A DNA stretch of 64,000 bases from Nitrospira sp. (GTDB taxonomy: Bacteria > Nitrospirota > Nitrospiria > Nitrospirales > Nitrospiraceae): assembly GCA_016788885.1 (NCBI GenBank), contig JAEURX010000008.1, forward strand, positions 1 through 64,000, given 5' to 3'. Numbering within the stretch: the first letter of the stretch is position 1; each line of letters opens with the position of its first letter. This document shows positions 22,353 through 39,946 of this stretch, one piece after another. Made by a program: the position numbers and the translations under genes. The notes under the pieces are model-generated. The model was not told where the DNA came from. It made no database searches and was given only the letters and a program-made list of their open reading frames with translations.

Positions 22353-22877
22353 TCAGGGTTTCAGTAGCGACTTCCAGAAGAACAGCTTGGCCCAGAAGAA
22401 TCCGGCCCACGGCAGGAAGCACGCCGGAATTGGATGGACTGCGCCGTACAACACCGCGATGGTCGATCCCGCTAACAACAAGGCCAAACCCACCATATAG
22501 GCGCCAGGAGCCCATGGGGATCCGGTGGGCGACTCCTGACTTTTTCCGCTTTCCCGTTTCGGTTTGCCGCTCTTCGAGAGCGCAGGCTGCCGCATGCGTT
22601 CGGCAAAAACCTCCGGACGATTGGCCAGGATCCAGCGATGGTACGTGGTCTGCACCCACCCCAACACTCCCCCAAGCAGCAATAACCCGGAACTTTCCAG
22701 AAACGTCGTCCAGCTATAGGTATCGGTAGCGATGAGTTGATAGCCCAAGCCGCCGACTCCGCCAAGCATGGAGATCAGGCCGAGAATGCCGGCCGGAAAC
22801 AACATGTAAGCTTTGATATAGGCCGTCGCCCGCGCGTCGTGCCCTTCCTGCTGTTTGACTGAGACAAGTTTTGGCAT
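22353..22877 (-). CDS. Hypothetical inner-membrane protein
   Basis: 174 residues from the ATG at 22877 (MPKLVSVKQQEGHDAR). Four hydrophobic segments are visible: YMLFPAGILGLISMLGG, TFLESSGLLLLGGVLGW, GAYMVGLALLLAGSTIAVL and PAWF-type end FLPWAGFFWAKLFFW. A basic, Ser/Lys-rich cytoplasmic loop lies between the second and third (SKSGKPKRESGKSQES). The longer frame to 23012 lacks family character and is not used. I do not recognise the family. Convergent with lpxD. Confidence 0.55.
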   Translation of the reverse strand: MPKLVSVKQQEGHDARATAYIKAYMLFPAGILGLISMLGGVGGLGYQLIATDTYSWTTFLESSGLLLLGGVLGWVQTTYHRWILANRPEVFAERMRQPALSKSGKPKRESGKSQESPTGSPWAPGAYMVGLALLLAGSTIAVLYGAVHPIPACFLPWAGFFWAKLFFWKSLLKP

Positions 22878-23006
22878 GGCCGTGATGGTCGTACAATCGT
22901 CGTCCCAACCGCAAGAGGAAATGCACCGATCAGGAACAATTTCTCTGGCGCAGATCGGGCGGAATTTACTCGCGATGCCTTGTGCGTTGAGTCCATTGTG
23001 GGACCT

Positions 23007-23050
23007 GTCCACAAGAACTGTGGACGGGCTGTGCGCAACCGTGTGGATAG
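23007..23050. repeat. Small inverted repeat with DnaA-box-like words
   Basis: GTCCACA-AGAAC-TGTGGAC (23007-23025) is a perfect 7-base inverted repeat; TGTGGATAG (23042-23050) differs at one base from the complement of a DnaA box. No dnaA, dnaN or parAB is near, so an origin is not supported. The ~297 bases between 22877 and 23175 otherwise look empty. Confidence 0.35.
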
Positions 23051-23174: not shown

Positions 23175-25250
23175 TTAGCCCATCGGAAGAATGTCGAAAA
23201 TAGCCGCGCGCTCGACCCGGCCAACATCCACCCACTGCTGGGCCAACGGAATCAGCGTCGCCAGTCGCTCTTCCACGGCTGCCAACCGCTCACGAATCGC
23301 AGCCGGCTTGTGTTGCGCCGTGACTCGCAGGAAGGTTCGTAGCCCTTGAAGAAACAGGTTGATATTGGCCGCGCACACCTGTTCCGCCGAGCCGGACAAG
23401 TCATCGATATCCTCAAAAATCGGCTCCAGCGCCTGAGGGCGCAACGGACGTTCCTCGCCGGCACGCGTAATCCGTCGGAGCGTATCGATTACTTTGGGCA
23501 CGCGTGCCTGCATGTGCTCAAGAAACCGCTCGTCCAAGGTATCCAACTCCTCCAGCATCCGTCCGATGGCCCGCGCATCGACCGGCTTCGCTCCGCCGGC
23601 GGCTTCTGCCTCCGCGCGATCAATCACCGTCTCGAGGACGTCCCGCACCGGCTCGCGCGAACGTCCACGGGCCAGATGTAACTGCCTCAATGCATCCAGG
23701 ATCGAAGGCGCAGCTGGCTGTCGGGTCGCCACAGGCTCTGTCTCGGCGTGTTCGCTTGACGCCGGTGCCACTGGAGACATGGCCGGGTTGCGTGCCGCGT
23801 CATCCGCCGGTTCCTGTCCAGCTGAATCAGCAGGCGGTTCCCCCTTCTCCGTAACCGGTTCCAGCTCTCGCACGGTCTTACTAATTTCCAACAAACCTTC
23901 TCGAAGTGACGCGACATGATGTGCAGCCACGGCCCGCTCATGTCTGGCGGCCGCCTGCAGTAACGGAAACAGTCTGGTTGCCATCTCTTCTACACCGGTT
24001 AACCCGACGGTCGCGGCGGAACGCGCAAGATTACCGACGCTTTGCCACAGAATCGTCGCCAATTGTGACCGGCGTGCTTGTTCACTGGTCGTATCCAGCC
24101 GCTCCAAGGCCGTCTGAATCTGATTGAGCCACTCCCTGGCTTCCAACACGAACAGGCCAAGGATCTCGCGTCGTACCGGGATCGTGGCGTCGACCGGTTC
24201 AGACTCTGATGAAACCCTGGGCGAGACCGGTCTGATCGCAGGTTGATCCACGGCGGCCTGAATCACTCCGGCAATGGCATCGAGGCTTTCCAGCAAGGCG
24301 GCAAATTGATCTGAGACAGTCGTGGACGTGGCAAGGACCTTCGCCGCCGCATGAACAGGTTCGAAGCTGACGCGCTCCAAAGCCGGTGGTTCGACGGTAT
24401 CCACCACCGACACGTGGGGCAGCAGACTCAAATCGATCAGGCGCGGCGGTTCTGACGTCGAGGCGTTCTCCGCATCCATGACGCGCAACACCGGGCGTGA
24501 GGGATATCGGGCGGTGATGCGTACCACCACCCCTTCTTCTCCGCTGCTGAGACGCACCCTGGTTCCGAGCGGATAGACCGACAATTGTTCGACCAACGCC
24601 TTCATGATTTCCCGGGGAAATGCGGTACGCTCTGTCGTGAGCAACTCACGAACGGCTTCATGCGGCAACAATCGACGACGATAGGGACGCGGGCTGACCA
24701 ACGCATCGAAGATGTCGACCAAACCAATAATTTGCGCCAACTCGTTGATCTCACGCCCTTTCAGGCGATGAGGATACCCCTGTCCCCTCCCCCGCTCATG
24801 AGCCTGCAAGACAACATCCGCCAGCCACGCATGGTCTGCACCGAGTCGAGTGATGACGTCGGCTCCCATGCGCGGATGCTGTTCAATGAGGCGGCGCTCC
24901 TCAGCCGACAGCCGGCCGGTTTTGGTGAGCAGCTCTTGCGGAACCGCAAAAATGCCAATGTCGTGCAGCAGGCCTGCCAAGGCGAGCCGTCGCAACTCGG
25001 TTCCGAAATAACCAAGACCGATGCCGACCTTCGTGGCCAAGATGCCGACATTGATGAGATTGGTGACCAGTGGAGAGCCTGGGGGGCTCGACAAGGCCTC
25101 AACAACTAACTGATCGCTGGTGTGAAGTGAATCGACGAGACTAGAAGCCAGTTGGGTGACCTCGGAAAGGTCGAGGTCTTCCTGCCGTTGCACAGCGGCG
25201 GCCACCTTGGCAAGCGCTGCCTCTGCTTGCCGATACTGATGCTGGTCCAT
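23175..25250 (-). CDS. Variant HD-GYP protein with a histidine-less Hpt-like domain
   Basis: 691 residues. Residues ~55-230 are an HD-GYP domain: LLHDIGIF (HD at 96-97), EQHPRMG (H125), AHERGRGQGYP (150-160), DIFDALVSPRPYR (D179). Two usual ligand positions look changed: HHE reads AHE, and the first His position reads Asn (VTNLIN). Residues ~365-435 (LFVLEAREWLNQIQTALERL, then VGNLARSAATVGLTGVE) match an Hpt helix bundle, but the phospho-accepting His is replaced by Gly406. A Pro/Glu-rich linker and a third helical region follow. It could degrade or only bind cyclic di-GMP. Last gene of the chemosensory run; the domain at ~365-435 is a relative of the preceding gene. Confidence 0.75.
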   Translation of the reverse strand: MDQHQYRQAEAALAKVAAAVQRQEDLDLSEVTQLASSLVDSLHTSDQLVVEALSSPPGSPLVTNLINVGILATKVGIGLGYFGTELRRLALAGLLHDIGIFAVPQELLTKTGRLSAEERRLIEQHPRMGADVITRLGADHAWLADVVLQAHERGRGQGYPHRLKGREINELAQIIGLVDIFDALVSPRPYRRRLLPHEAVRELLTTERTAFPREIMKALVEQLSVYPLGTRVRLSSGEEGVVVRITARYPSRPVLRVMDAENASTSEPPRLIDLSLLPHVSVVDTVEPPALERVSFEPVHAAAKVLATSTTVSDQFAALLESLDAIAGVIQAAVDQPAIRPVSPRVSSESEPVDATIPVRREILGLFVLEAREWLNQIQTALERLDTTSEQARRSQLATILWQSVGNLARSAATVGLTGVEEMATRLFPLLQAAARHERAVAAHHVASLREGLLEISKTVRELEPVTEKGEPPADSAGQEPADDAARNPAMSPVAPASSEHAETEPVATRQPAAPSILDALRQLHLARGRSREPVRDVLETVIDRAEAEAAGGAKPVDARAIGRMLEELDTLDERFLEHMQARVPKVIDTLRRITRAGEERPLRPQALEPIFEDIDDLSGSAEQVCAANINLFLQGLRTFLRVTAQHKPAAIRERLAAVEERLATLIPLAQQWVDVGRVERAAIFDILPMG

Positions 25251-25396
25251 GGTCTTCGTTCCTCACCCGAATACACGTGTCCCCAGAACCTGCCCTGTCT
25301 GCCGCTTCGTTTCCTCCGACCACAGCCGCAGCACGCTCATCCGGCGATGACTAGCACGTGGGGAGACGACGACCTTCGGACCTGTGTTGAATCTGC

Positions 25397-26344
25397 TTAG
25401 GCAGCCGGAACGAGACGACTCATCACATCCAACTCTTTCTGCCCGTTCGCGACCCACTCGTCGACCATGCTTGCCATGGCGAGAATACGCCGTTCCACCG
25501 CTTGCAGACGAGACTCGCCGACGCTGACACGACGCTGGACGAGCAGAGAAAGGAAATTCTGAAGGCCTGAGAGGAACGTCACAAGTACCGTCGCGTTCGT
25601 CTGCTTGGCCACACCGTGAAGATGCTCGAGGCTCTGCAGAGAGGGAGCAAGGAGAGTCTCCGTCCCTGAGTCTCCAAATCCTTCGACTCTCAGCCGATTC
25701 ATGTGCTGGGCAATGGCGGGTAGCTCCTGACGAAGTACCTCCAAGCACTGAGTATCCGCACTGTGGAGTTCGCGAAGGATGTGCTGAAATGCGGCGGACT
25801 GAATCTGGCCCGACCCCTGGCGCGCCTCCTGTTCAAACCGCTGAAGCACCAACGGAATGAGGCTACGTGAGACACCGGCCTCTGTGGCCTGCTGGTCCTG
25901 CAAGGCACGCAACGCATTCAAGAGGGTCAGGAAATCGATGGCCGGTTCGGGATCTGGCGCGGCTTCCCGCGCGGGCTCGATCTCGAGCACGATGCCGGTC
26001 GCGCCTTTCACGGAGGCGACCATCAACCGGAACTGCTCACGTACCGTACTGAAATCTTGCGCGGTGACCGTCGTCCGATCTTTAATGGTGTCGATAAAGG
26101 GAAGCAGCGCGAAGGTGGTCCGTTCCACATCGGGAAGATTAATCGTGGCCGCAGAGCCGCCCAAACTTGTGATGCCTCGTACGATCACATCGACCAATTG
26201 TGCGTATCGCTCCAGGTCCGGCTGGCCTTCAAGTTCGGTCAGCGCTGAATGGATCTGAACGAGCCACTCCTGCGCCTCCTGCCCAAAGAGCTCGATCAGT
26301 TCCTTTTGGAAATCGTCTTGGGTTTGTTCTGAGTCCATAGACAC
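25397..26344 (-). CDS. Pseudo-Hpt protein of the chemosensory cluster
   Basis: 315 residues. ELFGQEAQEWLVQIHSALTEL and VRGITSLGGSAATINLPDVE follow the Hpt pattern of the CheA in the same cluster (EAQEYLESLETDLLRM, AHTLKGSAYTVGF), but the His is Thr59 and the following Lys is Gly62, so it cannot accept phosphate by this site. A second helical region follows at ~150-315 with no other motif. It shares EWLxQIxxALxxL with the HD-GYP protein, suggesting duplication. It could bind receivers or compete with CheA for CheY. A 52-base gap separates it from the receiver/coiled-coil gene upstream and 146 bases from the HD-GYP gene. Confidence 0.65.
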   Translation of the reverse strand: MSMDSEQTQDDFQKELIELFGQEAQEWLVQIHSALTELEGQPDLERYAQLVDVIVRGITSLGGSAATINLPDVERTTFALLPFIDTIKDRTTVTAQDFSTVREQFRLMVASVKGATGIVLEIEPAREAAPDPEPAIDFLTLLNALRALQDQQATEAGVSRSLIPLVLQRFEQEARQGSGQIQSAAFQHILRELHSADTQCLEVLRQELPAIAQHMNRLRVEGFGDSGTETLLAPSLQSLEHLHGVAKQTNATVLVTFLSGLQNFLSLLVQRRVSVGESRLQAVERRILAMASMVDEWVANGQKELDVMSRLVPAA

Positions 26345-26403: not shown

Positions 26404-27879
26404 CTATCGTTTCCCGGCGCCGAGTTGAGACGCGAGACCGGCAATCTCGCCCAGTTTTCTCGCCAGGTCTTCAAACCGACGGGTCGATTGATCGGCCAGC
26501 TGTTCGGCCTCGGCCGCGCGTTGCGCCAGTTCCTGCGACCGCTCCTGTTCGGCAGCCAGCGCATGTTCCATTTCTTGGACCCGCGCGGCGCCCTCTTCCA
26601 ACTGTTTGACTTGTCCCAACAGCGCGGCGCCGGCTTCGCGCTCCGCCGACAGCGCGCGCTCCAGTTCCGTCATCTGAGTGCGTGCCTGTTCTCCCGCTTC
26701 TTCCAGCACCGGCACCATCGCTGCTACTTTCTCCAACTGCGCACGCTCACCGCGGTGCGTTTCGCACTCGTCGCGCACAGTCGACAGTGTCCGCTCCAAT
26801 TCGCGCACACGATCTTCCACGTGTTCCAGATTGGTAATCTGCTGGACCAATTGGTTGGCGGCTTCCCGTTCTGCCTCCAGATGCGCTTCCAACTCCACGA
26901 TTCTCGCGGCATGATGCGCCGCATCGGACAATTGCTGCGACAGATGCTCCACACGATGGCGTTCCTCAGCCAATGCGGATTCCACTTCTCCGACACGATG
27001 CGCCTGCCGCACCGCCACGTCCAGCTGTTGAGTCAACGCGGTCTGTTGTGTACGTTCATCGGCTACAGTCTGTTCAAGCCGTTGAATGCGAGACATCAGG
27101 GCGTCATTGTGTTCCTGTTGTTCGTTCAGCGCCGCTTGCACCTGTCGCATCTGCTCCTGCGTCAACCGCCGTTCCTCCACAAGCTGCCGTTCGAGCTCGG
27201 CGATTCGGGCATCCCGCTGAGCCAGCAGTGCCTGATGCTGTTCCTCGGCCTGGGAGGACAGAGGCGACTCAGGAGCGTGCTGTACGGGCGCTTCGTCAAC
27301 AGACAGCTCGTGGCTGAGATGCGCCATTACGGGTTCCGGCACGTTCATCGTGACCGGCTCGAATGGCCGGACCTCTTCCACACTCTGAGGTTGGATCGGA
27401 GCCACGGCTTGTGTGACAGAAGGATCAGGAGCGACGACCACGGCCTGAATCTCCGGCGACTCCGGTACCACCTGCACCTGAGGTGGCTCGGGAGCCGGCG
27501 CAGGCCTATGCGGCCGCTTCATCAAAAGGTCCAACACGCGATCTTTGAGAGACGTACCCTGAAACGGTTTCTTCAACACCCCATCAGCCTTGCACGTCTC
27601 GGCTTGTCGTGACACTTCGTCGTTCACGATGCCACTGATCAGCAGGACCGGCAGATCAGCCAAATTGGCTTGCCCACGGACATAGGCACAGACTTCGTAT
27701 CCACTCTTATCAGGCATGATCACGTCGGACACCACGAGGTCCGGACGATCCTTCGCCAATAACGCCAGGGCTTCCGACCCATTGGCCGCCAGGGTGACTC
27801 CCATTCCGGCCTCGGTCAACAGACGCTCGGCTACCTTGCGAACCGCAATGCTGTCGTCGGCGATCAGAATCTTTGGCAT
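26404..27879 (-). CDS. Response regulator with long coiled-coil output
   Basis: 491 residues. A receiver domain fills 1-120: acidic pair DD8-9, phospho-acceptor Asp52 in VVSDVIMPD, and KKPF for the conserved Lys. A Pro/Val-rich linker (~125-215) leads into a heptad-rich coiled coil from ~215 to 480 (ELERQLVEERRLTQEQMRQ, LEAHLEAEREAANQL and so on), Glu/Gln/Ala/Arg-rich. There is no DNA-binding domain. Receiver plus coiled coil resembles FrzS/RomR-like polarity or scaffold proteins, but the match is architectural only. It sits between the CheW-like genes and the pseudo-Hpt genes. Confidence 0.8.
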   Translation of the reverse strand: MPKILIADDSIAVRKVAERLLTEAGMGVTLAANGSEALALLAKDRPDLVVSDVIMPDKSGYEVCAYVRGQANLADLPVLLISGIVNDEVSRQAETCKADGVLKKPFQGTSLKDRVLDLLMKRPHRPAPAPEPPQVQVVPESPEIQAVVVAPDPSVTQAVAPIQPQSVEEVRPFEPVTMNVPEPVMAHLSHELSVDEAPVQHAPESPLSSQAEEQHQALLAQRDARIAELERQLVEERRLTQEQMRQVQAALNEQQEHNDALMSRIQRLEQTVADERTQQTALTQQLDVAVRQAHRVGEVESALAEERHRVEHLSQQLSDAAHHAARIVELEAHLEAEREAANQLVQQITNLEHVEDRVRELERTLSTVRDECETHRGERAQLEKVAAMVPVLEEAGEQARTQMTELERALSAEREAGAALLGQVKQLEEGAARVQEMEHALAAEQERSQELAQRAAEAEQLADQSTRRFEDLARKLGEIAGLASQLGAGKR

Positions 27880-27907: not shown

Positions 27908-28384
27908 TCAAGCGTGACGACTCGATGAAACCCCGAGGGTTGCCAGGTTGATGATAGGAAGCTGCTCACCACCGGCGACACATGATCCGGCCATGTCCGG
28001 ATCGTCGCCGTGCTGATACTGTAACGACGAGCGCGGCACCATCTGCAGGGAGGGCACCTCGGCATCAATGCAGATGGCCAGCGGTCCATCCACGTGCTTC
28101 ACGACCAGACACAGAGATTCGCGTTCGTGCATGGTGCGTTGGAACTTTGCCGCAAGATCAAATACCGGCAGACATCTGTCCTCGTGTCTGACCAAAGAGG
28201 TCACGAACCGCGTCTCACTCGGAACCGGGATCGCGCCTGGCCAGGGCATCACCCCGCCGATCTCCTCGGTTCTGGCGGCCAACCGTTGCCCCGCAACGGA
28301 AAACACCACCAGACGGAGCATTCGGTTTTCTGCCGTGCTTCTTGCCGCTGTCTGGCCCTGTTTGCGAGATTGACTGCGAAGCAT
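27908..28384 (-). CDS. CheW-like coupling protein
   Basis: 158 residues from ATG 28384. MLRLVVFSVAGQRLAARTEEI and GVMPWPGAIPVP start a CheW SH3-like fold, then VTSLVRHEDRCLPVFDLAAKF and LCLVVKHVDGPLAICIDAEV, and the end QLPIINLATLG. CheW proteins join receptors to CheA. It is one of three CheW-like proteins in the cluster, besides the CheW domain in CheA, so several arrays or a mixed one may form. The longer frame to 28525 overlaps the upstream gene and is not used. Confidence 0.75.
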   Translation of the reverse strand: MLRSQSRKQGQTAARSTAENRMLRLVVFSVAGQRLAARTEEIGGVMPWPGAIPVPSETRFVTSLVRHEDRCLPVFDLAAKFQRTMHERESLCLVVKHVDGPLAICIDAEVPSLQMVPRSSLQYQHGDDPDMAGSCVAGGEQLPIINLATLGVSSSRHA

Positions 28385-28406
28385 GTTCGATCCTCGAGTC
28401 CGACGA

Positions 28407-28982
28407 TTACCCCAGGTGACCAACCGGCGCCGACGGAACAGCCTCAAGCGTGGCGGCGACAGGCAATTCTGGCCTGGTTTCGCATTCTTCAGGCCTATGT
28501 TCAGACAGCCGCAACGCAAACACATCGAGCGCGTTACTCCGAAGCGGGAGACCCAGCACCCAAAACGGATTAGCGATCAGCGCGACAGTTTCTTTATCGG
28601 CAAATAATCCCAATAATCGATCCCGCTCTGCACCGCGAAACTGGGGAGGCAATGGTTGAATCATGGTGCGTTCCACGTCGAGTAGCCCCAAGACCTTGTC
28701 TACGGGGAAGAATCGGAGGTGGTGGTCATGACCATACAGGACCAACCTCGTCTCTGAGCTCGGAGCTTGCGGCTGAAGCTTCAAGCGGCCGACGAGATCG
28801 GTGTGCTCATAGGTCACATGGGCCCAGGTTACGCGCCCATCCAGCCCTGCAGCTGCGGGCGTCACAATGCCGCGAACCCACTGGGCGGGAAATGCGATGG
28901 AAGAACGACCGATCAGCGTGACCAGAAATCTGACCGCGTGTCCGCTGACCAACGTGACTGCCTGACTTCCCCGGAGTCCCAT
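28407..28982 (-). CDS. Divergent CheW-like protein
   Basis: 191 residues. VRFLVTLIGRSSIAFPAQWV, RGIVTPAAAGLDG, LVLYGHDHHLRFFPVDKVLGL and RLLGLFADKETVALIANPFWVL follow the CheW strand order (inner-face Ala/Phe-Pro, V-x-G-I-V). It is divergent enough that I call the family at moderate confidence. It starts 47 bases downstream of cheA and ends 22 bases before the next CheW. Confidence 0.6.
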   Translation of the reverse strand: MGLRGSQAVTLVSGHAVRFLVTLIGRSSIAFPAQWVRGIVTPAAAGLDGRVTWAHVTYEHTDLVGRLKLQPQAPSSETRLVLYGHDHHLRFFPVDKVLGLLDVERTMIQPLPPQFRGAERDRLLGLFADKETVALIANPFWVLGLPLRSNALDVFALRLSEHRPEECETRPELPVAATLEAVPSAPVGHLG

Positions 28983-29029: not shown

Positions 29030-32000
29030 CTATTTTTCGACCCCTGCCTCACGGCTCGTCCACTTGCGAACTTCTTGGATCAGGGCCCGCTCCTCCACCG
29101 GTTTGGCAATATAGCCTGAGGCGCCGACACTGACGGCCATCTGGCGATGCTTCTCCCCTGCGCGCGTGGTCATGACCAAAATCGGCGTGCTGTGCGTCTG
29201 GGGTCTTGCACGAAGCGCCTGGATCACTTCATACCCATTTAACTTTGGCATTTCTAGGTCGGTAATGATGAGCTGATAGGGCTGGACCATGGCTTTGCGG
29301 CAGCCTTCTTCGCCGTCGACCGCCGTTTCCACCGTATATCCGGCAGACTCCAGCATCCGACCAACAAACTTTCTAATGCTGAGCGAGTCATCGATCAACA
29401 ACAGCGGCAATTGGGTCGCGCCATGCTGTGCTGACTCTAACGCAGCAGGTGGCTCCTGAATCGATGGCACCCCGTGCATATGGGATTGCGCCAGAACATC
29501 ATGGTACTCGCGCGTCGTCAGGCGGCTCACATCTAAGACGAGTATGACGCGGCCTTCCGGATCAATCGTGGCACCGCCGAACACCGACCGTTCGTACGGC
29601 TTCAGGCCGCCCAGTGATTTAATGACGATTTCCTGCCGCCCCAGCAATTCATCCACTGCGCAGCCGAGCACTCCGGTGGAGGTCCGCACGATCACAACGG
29701 GGGACACTCCATCGATGATGCTTGCCTCCCGGCGAATGAGGCTGGCCAGCGGATACACCTCGATCGCTTCGTCACCGATTTGTAGCACCGAACGATCGCC
29801 CATCTGTTGCACGCTTGAGCTGACGGACATCGTGACTTCGCGCACACTCGGCAGAGGAATCGCGTACCGTTCACTGCCGACGCGCACCAGCAACGCCGTG
29901 GCAATGAGCAAGGTGAGCGGCAGATGCATCGTAAATTTCGTACCCTGCCCGTACACGGACTCCACTTCGATGTGGCCGTTCATCGTCTCAATGACACGCT
30001 TCACCACGTCCATGCCCACGCCGCGCCCCGCCTGACCTCCGACGGCATCAGCGGTAGTGAACCCCGGCAGGAAGATGAACTTGATCAGTTCGCTTTCAGG
30101 CAACGTGTCGGCGACGTCCTGCCTCACCAGCCCCAGCTTCACCGCCTTGGCCTTAATTTTGACGAGATCGAGACCGGCGCCATCGTCTTCGACTTCGATG
30201 AGCACCGAGTTCCCCCGATGAGCGGCGTGCAGATAGATGGTGCCGGCGGCCGGTTTCCCCTGTGCGACACGAGCGGCCGCGGGTTCGATTCCGTGGTACA
30301 CCGCATTTCGGACCAAATGAACCAACGGATCGACCAATCGCTCGACCACACCGGTATCGATTTCCGTATGTTCACCGGACGTGATGAGGGTCACCTCTTT
30401 CCCCGTAGCCCTAGCCATTTCCCGAGCGGCACGCCGGAACCGGGTAAACGGGGTTCCGATCGGCACCATGCGAGCACGAGCAATCTCATCGCGCATGCTC
30501 AGGGTCAATTGCTGCAAGGACCCCATGTCGTCTTGCGCGCGATGGATCGACCCCGACAGTTGCGCCATCGATTCGGAGATATCGGCAGTCACTTCACTGA
30601 TGCGGCGGGCCAAAATGTTGAAATCGTCGTACCGGTCGAACTCCAGGCTGCCGAAATCGTTGACGCCCGGCACATCAACAGGCATCGGACCTTCAGGAGG
30701 CACCGGAGACGGCTGGAACGAAAACGTATGTTTGTCCTCGAATGTCCGCACCGCATCGGTCAAACGGTTCTTATTGGCCAACACCTGCATCGCCAACTGA
30801 TCCAGCGTGCGCAAGCGTTGTTCGAGGCGACCTCGATCAATGACCAATTCGCCGACCAGATTCAGCAGACGTTCCAAGCGGTCGCGGTTGACGCGAATGA
30901 CCTCCCGCTCTTCGCCTGTCTTCCCCTCACTCGATTTCACCGACTCAACGCCGCTACTCTCGGGAGTCCCGGCCTGGGCCACCGCCTCAGCGACTGCCTG
31001 TGCGGACTCCGGCATGGGAGATTCCGTTGCCCCCCCCCCACACAACTGCTTCAGTTCCTGCAGCGCCGTAACAAACCGTTGTCTGGTGCGAGTGAGCAGG
31101 GACAGATCCCGCCGCATGAGACTACGAATCACATCGATCGCACGGAGCAACACATCTGTATGGCCAGGACGAAATTCAAGGCGTTCCTCGCGAACAGCCC
31201 CCATAAAGTCTTCGATGTGATGAGTCAGGTCGCCGATGGATTGGAATCCGACCGTATAGGCGGACCCTTTCAACGTGTGTGCCGTGCGGAACAACTGGTG
31301 GATGGTATCGGGATTGGCCGCATCCTTGTCCATTCGCAGTAAATCGGTTTCGAGACTTTCCAGGTACTCCTGAGCCTCCGGAGCGAAGTATGAAATGACG
31401 TCCGCATCAAGGGACGGCACCAAGTAGGCTTCGGTCAGTTCCTCATCCTGGTCGCCCATGAGAGCCGGCACAGGCAACGGCAGCGCAACAGCCTCTTGCG
31501 CCACGGACATCGTTGAGGAAACCCTGTCCTGAATCGCTGCTGCGCTCCCTACCTCTTCGGCACGGGGCTCGCCCTCTTGCAACTCGCGAAGCATCGCCAG
31601 GATGCACGGTACATCCTGCCGCAATTTCGACAACTGTTGTGCGTCTCTCGCTATCAACGTCCGCATAACATCTACGGCATGCCGAATCGTCGCGATCCAA
31701 TTCGGCGCCATGCTGGTGGTCCCCTCGCGGACCGCCGTCATGCAGGTTTCGATGGGATAGGCGATATCGCCCACCACCTCACATCCGACGGTATAGGCTG
31801 ATCCTTTCAACGTGTGTGCGACTCGATACAATTGATGAATCGTGTCGGCATCCGCCATATCTCTCTCCAAACGCCGGAGAAGAGTCTGGATAGTGTGGAG
31901 ATATTCTTCCGCTTCGGGGGAAAAATACGACAAGACCTCGCCGTCGATGACCGGAATGAGATAATCGTCAGAAGGCGCAGCTGAGGACTCGGCCGGCTCA

Positions 32001-32413
32001 GGCACCAGCGAATCAGCGACGGCCGGCAGGAACTCGGCACAGCGACGAACGAACCCTTCAACGACAGACGCGTCCTCGCCTCCCCCACGCCCGATCGCCG
32101 CAACTTGCGTTCGAAAGGAGACGACAATCTCGCGCAGGACTTCAAGAGCAAGAGGCCATTTCGCCGGGGAAATCTCCCCGACGCGTTCCAGGGTCTCCTC
32201 GAGCAACGCACCCAATTGGCCGAGGCCGGGGAACCCGTAAAGCAGCGCCGCGCCTTTTAACTTGTGCCCGACCGTATGCAGATCGGCAACGTCGGCAGGG
32301 CCCGGAGTTCCGTGGTCCTCCGGGTGTAATGCCTGCCAAAACCGCGCCATATCATCGCCGGCTTCTGCAACGAAGATGTCCAGCAGTTGGTCGCGATCGA
32401 AATCAGCGCTCAT
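29030..32413 (-). CDS. Hybrid CheA histidine kinase with three Hpt domains and a receiver
   Basis: 1127 residues. Hpt boxes: GHKLKGAALLYG (His50), AHTLKGSAYTVG (His200) and AHTLKGSAYTVG (His379); the last two are near-copies. Next come a P3 dimerisation region (RLERLLNLVGELVIDRGRL), the ATPase (N-box HLVRNAVYHGIE, G-boxes DDGAGLD and GRGVGMDVVK), a CheW domain, and a receiver (LLLIDDSLSIRK, TDLEMPKLNG, AKPV) at ~1000-1127. It phosphorylates its Hpt His and then receivers in the cluster. The layout resembles ChpA/PilL and FrzE-like kinases. It lies between the MCP (47-base gap) and two CheW-like genes. No gene symbol beyond cheA-like is warranted. Confidence 0.9.
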   Translation of the reverse strand: MSADFDRDQLLDIFVAEAGDDMARFWQALHPEDHGTPGPADVADLHTVGHKLKGAALLYGFPGLGQLGALLEETLERVGEISPAKWPLALEVLREIVVSFRTQVAAIGRGGGEDASVVEGFVRRCAEFLPAVADSLVPEPAESSAAPSDDYLIPVIDGEVLSYFSPEAEEYLHTIQTLLRRLERDMADADTIHQLYRVAHTLKGSAYTVGCEVVGDIAYPIETCMTAVREGTTSMAPNWIATIRHAVDVMRTLIARDAQQLSKLRQDVPCILAMLRELQEGEPRAEEVGSAAAIQDRVSSTMSVAQEAVALPLPVPALMGDQDEELTEAYLVPSLDADVISYFAPEAQEYLESLETDLLRMDKDAANPDTIHQLFRTAHTLKGSAYTVGFQSIGDLTHHIEDFMGAVREERLEFRPGHTDVLLRAIDVIRSLMRRDLSLLTRTRQRFVTALQELKQLCGGGATESPMPESAQAVAEAVAQAGTPESSGVESVKSSEGKTGEEREVIRVNRDRLERLLNLVGELVIDRGRLEQRLRTLDQLAMQVLANKNRLTDAVRTFEDKHTFSFQPSPVPPEGPMPVDVPGVNDFGSLEFDRYDDFNILARRISEVTADISESMAQLSGSIHRAQDDMGSLQQLTLSMRDEIARARMVPIGTPFTRFRRAAREMARATGKEVTLITSGEHTEIDTGVVERLVDPLVHLVRNAVYHGIEPAAARVAQGKPAAGTIYLHAAHRGNSVLIEVEDDGAGLDLVKIKAKAVKLGLVRQDVADTLPESELIKFIFLPGFTTADAVGGQAGRGVGMDVVKRVIETMNGHIEVESVYGQGTKFTMHLPLTLLIATALLVRVGSERYAIPLPSVREVTMSVSSSVQQMGDRSVLQIGDEAIEVYPLASLIRREASIIDGVSPVVIVRTSTGVLGCAVDELLGRQEIVIKSLGGLKPYERSVFGGATIDPEGRVILVLDVSRLTTREYHDVLAQSHMHGVPSIQEPPAALESAQHGATQLPLLLIDDSLSIRKFVGRMLESAGYTVETAVDGEEGCRKAMVQPYQLIITDLEMPKLNGYEVIQALRARPQTHSTPILVMTTRAGEKHRQMAVSVGASGYIAKPVEERALIQEVRKWTSREAGVEK

Positions 32414-32460: not shown

Positions 32461-34335
32461 CTAGGCCAACTTGAACTGCGCGACCGAGGTATTGAGCCCT
32501 TCGGCCAGTTTAGCCATATCCTCAATCGTCAAGCGCGTAGAGTCCGTTTGCTTCTGCGTCGCCACGGCGCCGCCGGTGAATTCCTTAATGGCGCGACCGA
32601 CCTTTTCCGTCGAATTCGTTTGCTCGGACGCCGCACTGGCGATGTTCTGCGCCAACTCAGAGGACCGTTTCGCGATGTCTGAAATTTCAGCGAACACGTC
32701 ACCGGTGCGAAGAGCGGAGGCCGATCCGGCTTCCACCGCCTGCGTTTCATGCTCCATCGCCACCACCGCATCCTGCGTTTCTGTCTGAATCACCTTCACC
32801 AGGTCGGCGATTTCTCGCGTGGCTTGGGTGGAACTTTCGGCCAATTTTCGAACCTGGTCGGCGACGACCGCGAACCGCGCGCCGGCCTCACCTGCACCTG
32901 CCGCTTCGATGGCGGCGTTCAGCGCGAGCAGGTTGGTTTGATTCGCAATATCTCGAATCGTCGACACAATCTGAGAAATTTCGAGGGAGCGGTCACCAAG
33001 ACCCTTGACCTGTTTGGACATCCTTTGCACCGCCGAGCGAATACTTTGCATATCGCGCACGGTTTCCTGCACCGCGACGTTTCCGCGTTCGGTTGCGGAT
33101 AACACCTGCTTTGCAGACTCGGAAGACGCGCCGGCCGTGCTGGCAACCTGACGCATACCGGCGGCCAACTGTTCGACCGCGCCCAGCGTTCGCACGGACT
33201 CTTCGGCCTGAACCCGGGCGGTTCCGGACATGTGTCCGGCCGAATCCCGCAGCGTCCCGGCCGACTTGTTCACGCGATCAGCCGCTTCACGGACCTGCTT
33301 CAACAACTGTCCGAACCTGGCGATCATGAGGTTGAAGCCGTCGGCCAGGTTTCCGAACATGTCGGCGGTCACCTCGCCTCGACGGGTCAAGTCTCCTTTA
33401 CCAACCTCGGATACGAGCACCAGGAATTGCATCAGGCGCTTCTGCATGAGGTCGCGTTCTTCCTCTGTCGACACCAAGGCGGTAATACGGTCGAGCATGG
33501 AGTTGAACGCGGTAGCCATCTGCCCCAACTCATCGTGCGACTCAATTTTCGCGCGCGCCTGGAGATTTCCCCCGGCAGCCTGGGTCGCCACGTTGGCGAT
33601 GTGTGTGATGTTGCGGGCCAAGAAGGTCGCCAGGAGATATCCGACGAACAACCCGAGGGCCACGGCCACCACACCACCGACGACGAGAATGAAGGTACCG
33701 TTCGTCGCGAGTGCCTGCGCATCCTCGTTCAGGTCCTTGGCAATCGCCTCAATGGTATTTACCTGCTCGTTGTGGCGCTTCACGACGCTTTCGAACGATG
33801 GCGTCAGGTTGACGGTCAGCGCCAGGACACCGAGGGCTCGCATCTGCTCGGCTTGGGAAGCAGAGAGCGTGTTGCGATCGAAGCTGTCCGCCATGGCACT
33901 CAACGCGCCGTCGGCATCTTGAAAGTATTTTTTCAGCGCCGGCTCGAACAGGGTCAGGTCTGCCTGTTCATCCCGCCCCGTGCGCGACACTCGGAGATTG
34001 GTGCTCTTGTAATGGGTGACGGCTTTCTCGATCTCGGCTTTCAATGCCGGGAGCTTGGCCACGTCCTGCGCGAAGTCCGCCTGTTTCGTCGCCGAAGCCA
34101 CGTCCAACAGAATTTGATGATGTTTGGTCAGCGCGGTTCCCATCTGGGCGAAATCGGCCAGAGGCACCGTATAGTCCGCATACACGGTTTGAGAATGCGT
34201 ACTGAGCTGGCGCAGGGTGAACACACCGACACTGGCCATGATCATGATAATGAGACTGACCAGGCCGAAGCCGAGGAACAGCTTCGATCGTGTCTTCATG
34301 TCCTGAAATCGATTCGTGACGCCTTGGCCGATCAT
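32461..34335 (-). CDS. Methyl-accepting chemotaxis protein (4HB-HAMP-MA)
   Basis: 624 residues. Membrane span ~18-40 ([21 protein letters not shown]), a periplasmic four-helix-bundle domain ~41-210 that includes long heptad helices, second span ~215-240 ([19 protein letters not shown]), HAMP ~240-290, and a signalling domain to the end with the hairpin tip around [24 protein letters not shown]-type sequence. It should bind a ligand directly or through a partner and control CheA. The nearest cheR/cheB are absent from the window, so methylation of this receptor must come from elsewhere or not occur. Confidence 0.9.
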
Positions 34336-34431: not shown

Positions 34432-34977
34432 TTAGATTCCCGGCAATGCCGCACTGCCTCCATCCACCTGCGCAAACACTTGCGGAACCTCCAAGACTCC
34501 CCCGAGACGCTGATCCACACGAAGTACCGCCGACACACAGGGACGCGCACCGGCAGGCCCGGCCTGCATGGCAGGCAAGAATTGCTCTCGCGCGACGGTG
34601 TGAATTTCTGGAACGTGGTCGACGAGGACACCGATCTGCTTCGCGCCATGACGGACCACCACCGCGATCGACAGTGCCGTCTGGGCCGACGGGAGGCCAA
34701 GACTTCCGCGCAAATCCACCAGGGTGATGACGGTGCCCCGCAGGTTGGTCACACCCGTCAGGTAGCTGGGCATACTCGGCACAGCCGTGACGGTCTCCAC
34801 CTCGAAGACTTCACTGACATGACGAAGATCGATCGCGAAGAGTTCGCCGCCCAGCGTCAACAGACACATCCTCAGAGGACCGTCGCTCGACCCGGCGGAC
34901 GATCTCGATGCACCGGTGGATACGGCAACCGGAGATGATGCGGCAGGTTGGGATGGAATGGTCGGAACGTCGCTCAT
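34432..34977 (-). CDS. cheW: CheW coupling protein
   Basis: 181 residues. An N-terminal Ser/Ala/Pro-rich lead of ~30 residues is followed by a classical CheW fold: LRMCLLTLGGELFAIDLRHVSEVFE, AVPSMPSYLTGVTNLRGTVITLVDLR, IAVVVRHGAKQIGVLVDHV. The NLRG motif is the most conserved receptor/CheA contact of the family. It starts 3 bases after the CheY-like gene stops. Confidence 0.87.
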   Translation of the reverse strand: MSDVPTIPSQPAASSPVAVSTGASRSSAGSSDGPLRMCLLTLGGELFAIDLRHVSEVFEVETVTAVPSMPSYLTGVTNLRGTVITLVDLRGSLGLPSAQTALSIAVVVRHGAKQIGVLVDHVPEIHTVAREQFLPAMQAGPAGARPCVSAVLRVDQRLGGVLEVPQVFAQVDGGSAALPGI

Positions 34978-34980
34978 GAG

Positions 34981-35343
34981 TTAGTTCAAAGCCCGTTTCA
35001 CCGCGGCCACCAGATCTTCCGCCTTGAACGGCTTCACCACATACCCGTTGGCGCCCTGCTGTTGCCCCCAAAACTTGTCGCTCTCCTGCCCTTTGGAAGT
35101 GCACAGGACGATCGGAATCCCCTTGAAGCGGTCGTCACTCTTCAAATCACGGCACGCTTGAAATCCATTCCGACCTGGCATAACGACGTCCAACACAATC
35201 AGATCCGGTTTATCCAACGCCAATTTGTCTTCCAGTTTGTCCGCATTGGGATAGGACACCACCGTATGGTTGGCGGACTTGAGATACCCTTCGATCAATT
35301 GCAACTCAGCGTAGGAATCATCGACGACGACGATCTTGCTCAT
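34981..35343 (-). CDS. Single-domain response regulator (CheY/PilG-like)
   Basis: 120 residues from ATG 35343. All receiver residues are present: DD8-9, phospho-acceptor Asp52 in VLDVVMPGRNG, Thr82 in CTSKG, Lys104 in VKPF. It accepts phosphate from the CheA of the cluster and gives the output, perhaps to type IV pili or to surface behaviour; the VLCTSKGQESDKFWGQQQGANGY stretch is of the PilG/PilH type. The longer frame to 35400 has no family match. It lies 63 bases after the Tll0287-like gene. Confidence 0.88.
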   Translation of the reverse strand: MSKIVVVDDSYAELQLIEGYLKSANHTVVSYPNADKLEDKLALDKPDLIVLDVVMPGRNGFQACRDLKSDDRFKGIPIVLCTSKGQESDKFWGQQQGANGYVVKPFKAEDLVAAVKRALN

Positions 35344-35406
35344 GCGTACTCCCCTTCGGACGGCTAAATGTGCGCAGCAATCATTGACCCGACTCAGCAT
35401 CGGGGT

Positions 35407-36141
35407 CTATTTCATGGGAATGACGATACTGATGGCGCCGGCAAGATCCCCTTCATGCCATCCTTCTTTCTTGGCACCAGTGACATCGCGATCCCCTTTG
35501 GGATTGCCATGACAGCTGAGACAGGTGGTCGCGGCATATTCCGGATCCATCATGCGGAGCACCGGACGACCGTCGAGCATGGTGGCCTTGCTGTAGGGCT
35601 GCCCTTTGGGATGGCGCGTATCGGCAAACAGTCTCAACACTTCGGATTCAAATTCATCGGGACGATTGCCTGGAAAACGATAGTCCATACTCGTCAACTT
35701 CACGCGAATTCCGGTCTTGCGATAAAAGCGCTCACCGGATTTCCTCGCGAAAACGGCGGGGATCATGCCCTTAAATCCAACCCCCTGCTTATTGATCACC
35801 GGTTGCGCTTCATCGATCACTTCCTTCTCGGATTCCACCATGGCAAGGAATAAGGGCGCCTGCGGCACCGTCGCGGGGCGACTCAAGTCGATCTTGGTCG
35901 CCTTGCGGAACCGTTCGATCACCTGGTTGGCGACAAAGTCGCCCGTGAATCCTTTGTCGCCCTTGCCTGCGTCATTGATGATCGCCTGATTTTCGGACAG
36001 AACCCCGCGCCCGACCTGCACCAATTTGATGAGGAGTTCAGCTGTTTCCACTTCGGTATTGGCCGATACAGGCACGGCCACCCCGATACTTGTCGCCATC
36101 AATGCAGCCACCAGGATTCTGCTGATGTAATGGTTCGCCAT
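35407..36141 (-). CDS. Periplasmic Tll0287-like c-type haem sensor protein
   Basis: 244 residues from ATG 36141. Signal peptide: SRILVAALMATSIGVAVPVSA, cut near residue 28. The mature protein is a Tll0287-like (DUF3365) domain: ELLIKLVQVGRGVLSENQAIIND, FVANQVIERF, GERFYRKTGIRVKLTS, and the single haem site ATTCLSCHG near 216-221. Such domains carry covalently bound haem and are thought to sense gas or redox. Being first in the chemosensory operon it probably supplies a redox or ligand signal to the MCP, but no membrane span links it directly. Confidence 0.82.
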   Translation of the reverse strand: MANHYISRILVAALMATSIGVAVPVSANTEVETAELLIKLVQVGRGVLSENQAIINDAGKGDKGFTGDFVANQVIERFRKATKIDLSRPATVPQAPLFLAMVESEKEVIDEAQPVINKQGVGFKGMIPAVFARKSGERFYRKTGIRVKLTSMDYRFPGNRPDEFESEVLRLFADTRHPKGQPYSKATMLDGRPVLRMMDPEYAATTCLSCHGNPKGDRDVTGAKKEGWHEGDLAGAISIVIPMK

Positions 36142-36212
36142 GCCCCCTCCTTCTCCCTGCCTCTCGGTCACCCACAAGCCCGCACGCTGCTAAGTCCGCT
36201 GATCTGTTGTCA

Positions 36213-36532: not shown

Positions 36533-38104
36533 CTAACGACGTGTTCGAGAATGGAGAAGGCCCCAGATTGGACTGAGATCGAGATGTTGCTCGAGATGAT
36601 CGGCCCAGCGATCCAATGCATGCCGTCTGGTGTGATTCACCTGCTGGGAGCGCGCAAGCTCAATTGGCTCAAGTCCCTTTCGACATCGTACCCGATTCAA
36701 CCAGGCTCGTCGGAACTGCGGCTGATCGAACAGGCCGTGAATGTACGTGCCCCAGACCAATCCATCTTCCCGCACCGCTCCATCGGAACAGCGAACATCG
36801 GATGTACCCATAGAAGCGTGATCGTGAGACGACTCCATCCTGCCGTTCAGTTGGAAACAGGGCTGATGGGGACCGGGATCCGTGCGTCCCATGTGGACGA
36901 AGTAGCCACGAACCACCACCGGTCCCGCCTCTTCAAGGTGCAGCGCTGATGCCTCAACCTGTTCCGTGATTTTGTCGGACATCATGACGGTTGTCGTCTG
37001 CAACAACCCCAGACCATCAGCCTCACCGCCGGTCTCTACTGCGTCAGGGTCGGCAATCCAACGCCCTAACATTTGATAGCCTCCGCAGATCCCCACCAAC
37101 TCCCGACCGCTGCGAACATGGTGCTGCACCACAGCTTCGAATCGCTGTTCACGCAGGTAGGCCAAGTCTGCCAACGTGCTCTTTGAACCGGGAATGATCA
37201 CCGCATCCGCTCCGGCTGCCTCTCCAGGCGTCGCGACATACCGCAGCGCCACGTCGGCCTCTTGTGCCAGCATGTTGAAATCCGTGAAATTGCTCATGTG
37301 GGGCAGAAGCAGGACCGCAATATTGACGCGGTCCTCCGCAAACACGACCTGCCGGCGAACCTCGACATCCAAACTGTCTTCCTGGTCCAGTGCAAGTTCG
37401 CGGAGAAACGGCAGTACGCCCAGCACCGGAACCCCCGTCCGCTCGCGAAGAAACCGAACACCGTCCGCAAACAGCGTCCGGTCGCCGCGAAACTTGTTGA
37501 TCACGAGCCCGCACACCCTGGCACGTTCCTCCCGTGTAATGAGATCGAGCGTGCCGATCAGTTGGGCAAACACACCGCCGCGATCGATGTCACCGACTAA
37601 CACCACCCGGGCGTCTGCTAATTCCACGGTCGCCCAGTTGACCAGGTCGCGGTCGCGCAAGTTCACCTCGGCCGCGCTGCCGGCGCCCTCGATGACAATC
37701 ACTTCATACTGTGCGGCGAGCCGTTCGTAGCTCTCCTGCACCGCTTGAAACAACGCCGAATTCCGGCCACGCGAAAAATAGGACTGCGCGTCCAACGTAG
37801 AATAGACACGCCCCTGCACCACCACCTGTGCCCTCGCATCGGATTCCGGCTTGAGCAAGATGGGGTTCATGTCCACGTGGGGAGCAATGCCGCAGGCTTC
37901 AGCCTGCAGGGCTTGCGCACGCCCGATCTCGCCGCCTTCCGGAGTCACGAACGAGTTCAGCGACATATTCTGCGCCTTGAACGGAGCCACGTTCAGACCC
38001 GCCCGATGCAGCGATCGACAGAGGCCCGCCGCGACCAGACTCTTTCCGACGTCGGAACCGGTCCCTAGAACGGCGATGGCTGTGGCGCGAGCGAGGAGAG
38101 ACAT
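36533..38104 (-). CDS. cbiP: Cobyric acid synthase (CobQ/CbiP)
   Basis: 523 residues. N-terminal DTBS-like P-loop ATPase: VLGTGSDVGKS, then FKAQNMSLNSF, EGAGSAAEVNLRD and GDIDRGGVFAQ. C-terminal class I glutamine amidotransferase with the nucleophile in LVGICGGYQMLG and a catalytic His in GTYIHGLFD. It amidates adenosyl-cobyrinic acid a,c-diamide at four side chains. It lies last in the btuB-led operon, 16 bases after cbiZ, so in salvage it acts before CbiB. Confidence 0.92.
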   Translation of the reverse strand: MSLLARATAIAVLGTGSDVGKSLVAAGLCRSLHRAGLNVAPFKAQNMSLNSFVTPEGGEIGRAQALQAEACGIAPHVDMNPILLKPESDARAQVVVQGRVYSTLDAQSYFSRGRNSALFQAVQESYERLAAQYEVIVIEGAGSAAEVNLRDRDLVNWATVELADARVVLVGDIDRGGVFAQLIGTLDLITREERARVCGLVINKFRGDRTLFADGVRFLRERTGVPVLGVLPFLRELALDQEDSLDVEVRRQVVFAEDRVNIAVLLLPHMSNFTDFNMLAQEADVALRYVATPGEAAGADAVIIPGSKSTLADLAYLREQRFEAVVQHHVRSGRELVGICGGYQMLGRWIADPDAVETGGEADGLGLLQTTTVMMSDKITEQVEASALHLEEAGPVVVRGYFVHMGRTDPGPHQPCFQLNGRMESSHDHASMGTSDVRCSDGAVREDGLVWGTYIHGLFDQPQFRRAWLNRVRCRKGLEPIELARSQQVNHTRRHALDRWADHLEQHLDLSPIWGLLHSRTRR

Positions 38105-38120
38105 ACCACTCCACTTGGAT

Positions 38121-38852
38121 TTACCTTCGGTGATTCGCGGCCCATTGCGCGGCGCGCGCGAGCCCGGCCGTCACACACTCTCCCACCACGAGGCCGATCA
38201 TGGAACCGAGGTCCGTATGTGTGCCCGCATAGGGGTGCCATGGCCCATGCCCCCGCAAGGCGCAGGCGGCCACCACCGCATCCGTCCCCGTCCCCGTGGC
38301 GCCGGGCAAACCGGTCCAGCTCGGTACCGCATGATCCCGCAATACGCCGGTCTTACTCTCCGTGGCAACCTGTACTGCACCGACCAAGGCAGGGACCGCG
38401 AGGCAGGCATTGGTGACCACGATCAGATTGATCGTTCCTGTCTTGCCATGGCTCGCATGCCCTTCGTTCTGTCTGGGAATTTCGCCGGCCCGTACGGCAT
38501 TGGTGACCCCGACGGTCGCAAAACATTCCACCCAGAGCCCATCCCGTTCCTCACGACAGGTGACGACCTGCGTCATGGGAACCGCCGTCATCAGACCGAC
38601 GCAATCCGACTCAATCCCGAGCGACTCTGCGAGACGTCTCAGGTAGCGGGAAGGATTGTCCCACGTTCCCACTGCACCATTCGACATTGGATTGGAAGGC
38701 ACCTGGTGATTGAGAATGTACCGGGTGGTTCGAAGCCCCCCTCCTCGTGGAGCAGAGGACAGGACGCGCATGCGAGCCCCCAGATCGACGATCAACGTCT
38801 CGCGAGCCACGCGTGATCGCGTCGAGAAGCGAGTCGAATCAGGCCTGCTCAT
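38121..38852 (-). CDS. cbiZ: Adenosylcobinamide amidohydrolase (CbiZ)
   Basis: 243 residues. IVDLGARMRVLSSAPRGGGL, NHQVPSN, VGLMTAVPMTQ, FATVGVTNAVRAGE, INLIVVTNACL, and the C-terminal GTGTDAVVAA are the signature blocks of CbiZ. It cleaves the aminopropanol or lower-ligand arm of adenosylcobinamide or of pseudocobalamin, giving adenosylcobyric acid that can be rebuilt as cobalamin. Its presence marks corrinoid salvage and remodelling. The start overlaps the stop of the threonine-phosphate decarboxylase by 4 bases (ATGA). Confidence 0.9.
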   Translation of the reverse strand: MSRPDSTRFSTRSRVARETLIVDLGARMRVLSSAPRGGGLRTTRYILNHQVPSNPMSNGAVGTWDNPSRYLRRLAESLGIESDCVGLMTAVPMTQVVTCREERDGLWVECFATVGVTNAVRAGEIPRQNEGHASHGKTGTINLIVVTNACLAVPALVGAVQVATESKTGVLRDHAVPSWTGLPGATGTGTDAVVAACALRGHGPWHPYAGTHTDLGSMIGLVVGECVTAGLARAAQWAANHRR

Positions 38853-39946
38853 CTCGTCACTCGCACGATGGAAGCCAAGGCCTTCAGCAGCCGATCATTC
38901 TCGTCTCTTGTTCGCACCGCCACCCGCAGCGAGCGATCGTTCAAGCCCGGCACCTGTGAACAGTCACGGAGCAGCAGGCCTTGCCGTCGCAGCGCCGACA
39001 CCACCCGCGCGGCCTTGTACCCGACCGGCAGTTCCATCAGGATAAAATTGGCCTTCGTGGGAAACACCTGGACACCTGAGAGCCGTTCGAGTCCCCGCTG
39101 CAACCGTATCCGTTCTCGATCCATGAACTGCAGGCTTCGCCGACGATGCCGGTCGTCCTGCAATGCCGCCACGGCAGCACGCTGCGCCAACATGTTCACC
39201 GACCACGGAGGCTGGTGGGCGCTTAGCCGCTTCGTCACTGCGGGTGGCGCGACCACATACCCCACACGAAGCCCTGGAAGCCCGTAGAACTTTGTAAAAC
39301 TCCGCAGCACGATCGTCTTGGGAGGAAGGACAGTTCCCAGAATCGATACCGATTCGCAATAGTCCGCAAACGTTTCATCAACGACGCACCAGAGTCCGAG
39401 CCGCGCCGTCTCACGAGCGAGCCTCCGCACGGTTCCTGCCTCCCACGCGACGCCGGTCGGGCTATTGGGATTGCACAGCAACACCGCATCGAGCGACCGC
39501 CCAACAGTGCTCGCCCGTCTCATGGTCTCCAACACCAACTCCGGCTGTGGTTGATACAGATCATGCCGCGCCGCCACGATCAGGCTGATCTGTCCACCGG
39601 ATCGTGCCATCGCCGTCGCGTATTCGGAAAACGTCGGACCCACCACCAACAGATGTTGTATCTGCAGTGCTGCCGGAAGGAGATGGATCAATTCCGTCGA
39701 TCCATTCCCGATAAGAAAGGCATCGGGGGAACGACACCAATAGGCGGCCAGTGCCTGCCGCAAGTCCCAGCACAACGGATCCGGATAGTGCCGGAGCAGT
39801 GTCGTCGCACCTTTGAGCACCCGAGACACTGCGGGAGCGGGGCCCAGCGGATTGATGCTGGCACTGAAATCGAGGAGTCGATCGGGCGCTCGCTTCAAGT
39901 CACGAGCCGCGCCGTACACATCTCCGCCGTGCCTCGCGCGCGTCAT
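38849..39946 (-). CDS. cobD: L-threonine-O-3-phosphate decarboxylase (CobC/CobD)
   Basis: 365 residues from ATG 39946, which overlaps the cbiB stop as ATGA. PLP-dependent class I aminotransferase fold: RHGGDVYG start, LLDFSASINPLGP, LRHYPDPLCWDLR, IGNGSTELIHLLP, LLCNPNSPTG, VVDETFADYCES and the PLP-Lys in LRSFTKFYGLPGLRVGY. It decarboxylates threonine phosphate to (R)-1-aminopropanol phosphate for the nucleotide-loop arm. Named cobD in Salmonella and cobC in Pseudomonas; here cobD is given in the Salmonella sense. HisC-like paralogues are possible, but the operon decides. Confidence 0.85.
   Translation of the reverse strand: MTRARHGGDVYGAARDLKRAPDRLLDFSASINPLGPAPAVSRVLKGATTLLRHYPDPLCWDLRQALAAYWCRSPDAFLIGNGSTELIHLLPAALQIQHLLVVGPTFSEYATAMARSGGQISLIVAARHDLYQPQPELVLETMRRASTVGRSLDAVLLCNPNSPTGVAWEAGTVRRLARETARLGLWCVVDETFADYCESVSILGTVLPPKTIVLRSFTKFYGLPGLRVGYVVAPPAVTKRLSAHQPPWSVNMLAQRAAVAALQDDRHRRRSLQFMDRERIRLQRGLERLSGVQVFPTKANFILMELPVGYKAARVVSALRRQGLLLRDCSQVPGLNDRSLRVAVRTRDENDRLLKALASIVRVTR

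Follow-up and report, generated by a model that had tools for sequence, protein, structure and literature searches.

Tandem pseudo-Hpt proteins of a Nitrospira chemosensory operon, one of them fused to a degenerate HD-GYP domain, as candidate docking adaptors for receivers

What could be the role of two neighboring proteins that resemble the Hpt domains of a chemosensory kinase encoded in the same operon, and yet carry no histidine to be phosphorylated? The question is raised by P2 and P1, two proteins encoded on contig C8 of a 3.9-Mb Nitrospira genome, within the stretch of 64,000 nucleotides analyzed here (the window; Table 1). On the minus strand, ten genes follow each other in the order Tll0287-like haem protein, receiver, CheW, MCP, CheA, CheW, CheW, receiver/coiled coil, P2 and P1. 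P2 is preceded by a gap of 59 bp and separated from P1 by about 146 bp; gaps of this size are consistent with all ten genes forming one operon, although they are no proof of it. A promoter/terminator scan found fewer sites than in shuffles. Judged by gene order, the operon includes the REC-CheW-MCP-multi-Hpt CheA-REC series that we take to be that of the Pil-Chp (Tfp-class) system. Our literature searches returned nothing on the Nitrospira sensing cluster that encodes P2 and P1. As to its surroundings and possible input, the haem protein encoded by the first gene suggests that the system responds to a redox or gas signal. Directly upstream of the operon there are genes for cobalamin biosynthesis (CobQ/CobB-like, CbiZ, an aminotransferase and CobD/CbiB; 36533-40899), and next to P1 there is a 219-aa minus-strand ORF (22353-23012) with no Pfam match at E 0.001.

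Table 1. Features of the P2/P1 locus (positions in the window)
Feature	Position	Strand	Details
P2, stand-alone module, 315 aa	25397..26344	-	pseudo-Hpt D1 ~residues 5-116, helical D2 ~138-313
P1	23175..25250	-	degenerate HD-GYP ~60-225, short beta domain, linker, module (pseudo-Hpt ~358-462, D2 ~515-691)
HD-GYP core of P1	24576..25073	-	N64, I100 and A150 replace PmGH H189, K225 and H276
Receiver + coiled coil, candidate docking partner	26404..27879	-	D8/D9, D52, S82, K104 intact
Two CheW-like proteins	27908..28982	-	listed ORFs overlap; true start of the second probably further downstream
CheA	29030..32413	-	three true Hpt domains (His50, His200, His379) and C-terminal receiver
Chemoreceptor	32461..34335	-	4HB_MCP, HAMP, MCP signal domain
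CheW	34432..34977	-	
Single-domain receiver, second candidate docking partner	34981..35400	-	
Tll0287-like protein	35407..36177	-	CLSCH haem c motif; first gene of conserved order

An earlier note on this DNA had described P2 and P1 as tandem, duplicated pseudo-Hpt proteins. Both ORFs are present on the minus strand with the EAxEWLxQIxxAL and GSAAT/RSAAT blocks that it had pointed out, and profile alignments place Thr59 of P2 and Gly406 of P1 at the phospho-His column of the CheA Hpts, as it had proposed. The duplication reaches beyond the Hpt boxes: P2 and the last 330 residues of P1, its entire C-terminal half, are paralogues throughout the length that they share, with similarity over ~310 residues. 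The shared module consists of the pseudo-Hpt domain, D1, and a second conserved helical domain, D2. The original observation is thus confirmed and turns out to be larger than noted, including a longer similarity, the second domain D2 and a degenerate HD-GYP domain.

Several lines of evidence bear on the identity of D1. By profile it matches the P1 domains of CheA in PDB and the Hpts of the same-operon CheA; with the D1 alignment as the PDB query, the top matches are the CheA P1 domains 2ld6 (3.6e-7) and 1tqg (9.2e-7). Against the Hpts of the same-operon CheA, hhalign probabilities are 96-97% (E 1e-9 to 4e-11), the best match being that to Hpt2+3 (97.2%, E 4e-11), whereas the helical controls of the same operon (coiled coil, MCP and CheA dimerisation domains) stay below 2.5%. 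The four-helix Hpt bundle is predicted with good confidence (AlphaFold2 mean pLDDT of 88 for P2). Foldseek aligns the P2 model with 1tqg at a TM-score of 0.78 (rmsd 2.5) and with CheA3 P1, taken from the CheY6 complex, at 0.65, and the P1 model with 1tqg at 0.77. The structural argument rests on these TM-scores, which are normalised to the target (0.64-0.78); the whole-chain E-values are weak (0.2-0.3), as is expected when a short all-helical domain lies inside a longer chain. The window copies score below the cut-off of the Pfam Hpt family PF01627 (16.8 and 12.8 vs 24.6 bits), and two divergent relatives score above it. The profile matches and predicted structures strongly support the assignment of D1 as a genuine Hpt homologue with the Hpt fold.

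To describe the active site of D1, we considered 60 P2 relatives, 35 fused (P1-type) relatives and 49 CheA rows from the same genome set at four positions, which we take to be the active site of the CheA P1 domain. The phospho-His site is occupied by Thr in 53 of the 60 P2 relatives (otherwise Ala in four, Ser in two and Asn in one) and by Thr (18), Asn (8), Ser (5) or Gly (4) in the 35 fused relatives; neither the aligned nor any different His stands at the site in any of the 95. The active-site Lys has become Gly in 55/60 P2 relatives (G62) and Ala in 33/35 P1 relatives (A409). Among P2 relatives, the second His is replaced by Phe in 51/60 (F78; it is His in two) and the Glu by Leu, Ile or Val in all 60 (L81 in 49/60). 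The three CheA Hpts of the same genomes, by contrast, retain their active-site residues, with His in 49/49, 43/49 and 49/49 rows. By its residues, D1 is classed as a pseudo-Hpt and not as a phosphotransfer domain, because both the phosphorylatable His and its Lys/Glu neighbors are absent. His32 of P2 was considered as a substitute phospho-His and rejected; although conserved in 53/60 relatives, it is part of helix A, and P1 mostly has Gln there.

The same counts bear on three functions that would involve phosphate chemistry. Thr59 of P2 might itself accept the phosphate, a role that has been proposed for the Thr/Ser phosphotransfer domains of ChpA, and the predominance of Thr, with Ser in a further two P2 relatives, agrees with this idea. 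However, five of the P2 relatives have Ala or Asn at the site, 12/35 P1 relatives have Gly or Asn, and in ChpA four of nine Xpt domains are without phosphorylation (PMC12632253), so that we regard such a role of Thr59 as very improbable. Among the functions offered by the earlier note (phosphatase, sponge or docking), docking fits best, given the conserved face, the intact partner receiver and the FimL precedent, whereas the other two are left without support. With no phosphorylatable His at the site of either domain, they are unlikely to be a phosphate sponge. That P2 and P1 are phosphatases of the receivers would agree with the lack of a CheZ/CheX-like gene among the operon genes examined, but there is no phosphatase family match in Pfam or NCBIfam, and the site shows no acid/amide pair; we give this option very little credence.

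Since the active site is lost in both copies, P2 and P1 might also be viewed as functionless, decaying relics of a duplicated CheA Hpt. Yet the dN/dS of D1 is only 0-0.19 over 17 close pairs, strongly indicative of purifying selection; its core identity (0.67) is above that of CheA Hpt1 (0.49) and Hpt2 (0.55), and the module is kept in nearly all genomes of the family (see below). Decay was rejected on the D1 dN/dS, and its probability seems to us negligible. At the lost site and around it, P2 residues 57, 59, 62-64, 66 and 67 are near-invariant, whereas the same helix is variable at 52, 55 and 56. The Gly and Asn tolerated at the site in P1 could mean relaxed constraint there. A conserved but unphosphorylatable Hpt might alternatively act on the kinase, occupying the surface of CheA P4 or of the receiver that the true Hpts use and thereby inhibiting or tuning the relay, as thought for AHP6. 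The fold and the helix-A pattern common to D1 and the CheA Hpts, the Asn found at the site in some copies and the precedent of plant pseudo-HPts (PMC12115143) all speak for such a role. On the other hand, D1 has also lost the Lys and Glu that accompany the His in the CheA Hpts, and with them the kinase-facing chemistry; a pure competitor would need neither HD-GYP nor D2. We thus consider an action on the kinase unlikely.

D2 has its own invariant residues and looks weakly Hpt-like, with an hhalign probability of 40% (E 3e-4) when combined profiles are used, compared with less than 0.4% for controls. The register of the alignment puts L242/A246 on L61/A65, and there is no His at the D2 site (A32, E15). 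From these profile comparisons, D2 could be another Hpt-like bundle, one that has diverged further than D1.

The HD-GYP fold of P1 is supported by Pfam (HD_5, 9.9e-28) and by Foldseek matches to 4r8z, 4mcw and 9rbz. In PmGH, the H189A, H276A and K225A substitutions essentially abolish hydrolysis, whereas alanine changes in GYP, R314 and K317 do not (PMC4159591). It is the former set, comprising two metal ligands (H189, H276) and a Lys (K225), that is replaced in P1, and the replacements are shared by the fused relatives (N64 and A150 in 35/35, I/L100 in 34/35), N64 being invariant also in stand-alone HD-GYP relatives. P1 retains H96/D97, H125, H151, D179, GYP, R188 and R191, and the equivalents of GYP and R314/K317 (K317 as Arg) are found in 35/35 fused relatives. 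The eight other HD-GYP matches in the same genome all have both His of the HH pair (8/8), and seven of the eight have the first His. Judging from these residues, P1 is without the complete metal ligands and the catalytic Lys of HD-GYP c-di-GMP phosphodiesterases but keeps the residues for c-di-GMP recognition. We consider the chances about even that its HD-GYP domain would be a c-di-GMP reader, binding the nucleotide without hydrolyzing it. Elsewhere in the genome, metal ligands are also missing from the HD-GYP proteins L099 (H250 to Y, D305 to Q) and L100 (H189 to R, H221 to L), on contigs C14 and C27.

A D2 profile search over 296 genomes of the phylum, 80 of them from the family of the window, found the module in 75/80 family genomes; one copy (G102) is a broken remnant, and in the remaining 74/80 the module is intact and resides in a chemosensory operon of fixed order. 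Outside the family, the same 296 genomes yielded a single further genome with the module, from a different family of the order, and a weak partial match in one other place. All six family genomes that have no intact copy lack this CheA as well, and P2 is not missing from any genome that has this CheA. Beyond the phylum, a single-sequence scan matched Nitrospira records, one of them labelled Nitrosospira; because only a single sequence was used there, the restriction of the module to the family is a statement on the phylum sample. In the tree, the P2 and P1 copies of the module form two groups with one fully supported branch between them, which strongly argues for one duplication; with it, one copy became fused to the HD-GYP domain. 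The HD-GYP tree requires three changes between fused and lone forms, which we read as at least two losses of the fused copy inside one genus, plus one long-branch lone case that is unplaced. In several relatives, P2 has no HD-GYP next to it. The interval from P2 to HD-GYP, so short in the window, holds a gene for an AAA_22 ATPase (~265-300 aa, WGLxxxPFENVPDP motif) in many relatives, as in L047, L049, L066, L067, L073, L080, L081 and L083, and in L050 the AAA_22 ORF runs on into a coiled-coil-looking tail. L059 and L061 represent a diverged P2 branch having an eroded GSAAT motif, a shorter CheA and no adjacent HD-GYP.

On balance, it seems probable that P2, like the C-terminal half of P1, is an Hpt paralogue without catalytic function that serves as a docking adaptor for the receivers of the operon, P1 having a c-di-GMP arm in addition. 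The receiver of the coiled-coil protein has D52, S82 and K104 in 71/71 sequences; with these phosphorylation residues intact, CheA should be able to pass phosphate to receivers, whereas no relay is possible through P2 and P1. In the mechanism that we propose, CheA would phosphorylate the receiver/coiled-coil protein and the single-domain receiver, and a receiver would bind both P2 and P1 at the Hpt-like face, with no phosphotransfer taking place. By analogy with FimL we infer this docking to be phosphorylation-independent, a step that we hold to be rather likely. P2 would then keep the receiver in place, as FimL holds PilG, and P1 would link this complex to a domain able to bind c-di-GMP but not to hydrolyze it; chemosensory and c-di-GMP signals would meet on one scaffold. 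The output would probably be the steering of type IV pili or surface attachment. This link to type IV pili is a weaker one, suggested by the pilus-type ATPases encoded in the genome together with the gene order, and it also draws on the presumed similarity of the operon to Pil-Chp. Some observations count against this explanation: at least two losses of the fused copy, in relatives keeping HD-GYP, make it dispensable there, the relatives that have P2 without an adjacent HD-GYP imply that the c-di-GMP link is not essential to P2, and the Gly and Asn at the site of P1 may reflect a relaxed constraint. It is more speculative still, though possible, that the locus represents a family-wide chemosensory output arm made of pseudoenzymes, a pseudo-Hpt scaffold fused to a c-di-GMP-reading HD-GYP, in which docking and c-di-GMP binding would control each other with neither phosphotransfer nor hydrolysis.

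Pseudo-Hpts as such are not new, FimL and AHP6 being known examples, but their mode of action is poorly understood. P2 and P1 provide a family-wide set of ~100 natural sequences with a clear duplication, natural one-copy losses and an intact receiver adjoining, and they would show a chemosensory reading of receivers and c-di-GMP through dead enzymes in Nitrospira. The closest parallel is FimL of the Pseudomonas Pil-Chp system, in which the phospho-His is likewise replaced and a multi-Hpt CheA with its own receiver is present alongside (PMC3019171, PMC10519157). In both of its Hpt-like domains FimL carries Gln in place of the His (PMC3019171), and it is needed for proper receiver localisation: together with ChpA it is required for polar PilG, and it helps to recruit also PilG D58A and D58E, variants changed at the phosphorylation site (PMC10519157). 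In our case, D1 is without the His and D2 looks only weakly Hpt-like. FimL, compared here by its published description, differs in having Gln at the sites and in resembling the ChpA N-terminus, whereas P2 and P1 have Thr, Asn, Ser or Gly, are of different size, operon-encoded and duplicated, and have one copy fused to HD-GYP. The Xpt domains of ChpA also have Thr or Ser for His, and several of them are unphosphorylated (PMC12632253), but they sit inside the kinase, whereas P2 and P1 are separate proteins. The plant pseudo-phosphotransfer protein AHP6 is similarly a stand-alone unphosphorylatable Hpt retained as a regulator (PMC12115143), although it belongs to the cytokinin pathway and has no fused output domain. 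As for the HD-GYP part, DvhD is a solved inactive HD-GYP that binds c-di-GMP (PMC13090378), and its example implies that a degenerate HD-GYP of this kind can be a c-di-GMP receptor. Like DvhD, P1 has the HD-GYP fold with metal ligands lost; however, DvhD, which controls a periplasmic protease, has lost the HD pair itself, whereas P1 keeps HD and has lost the equivalents of H189, H276 and K225.
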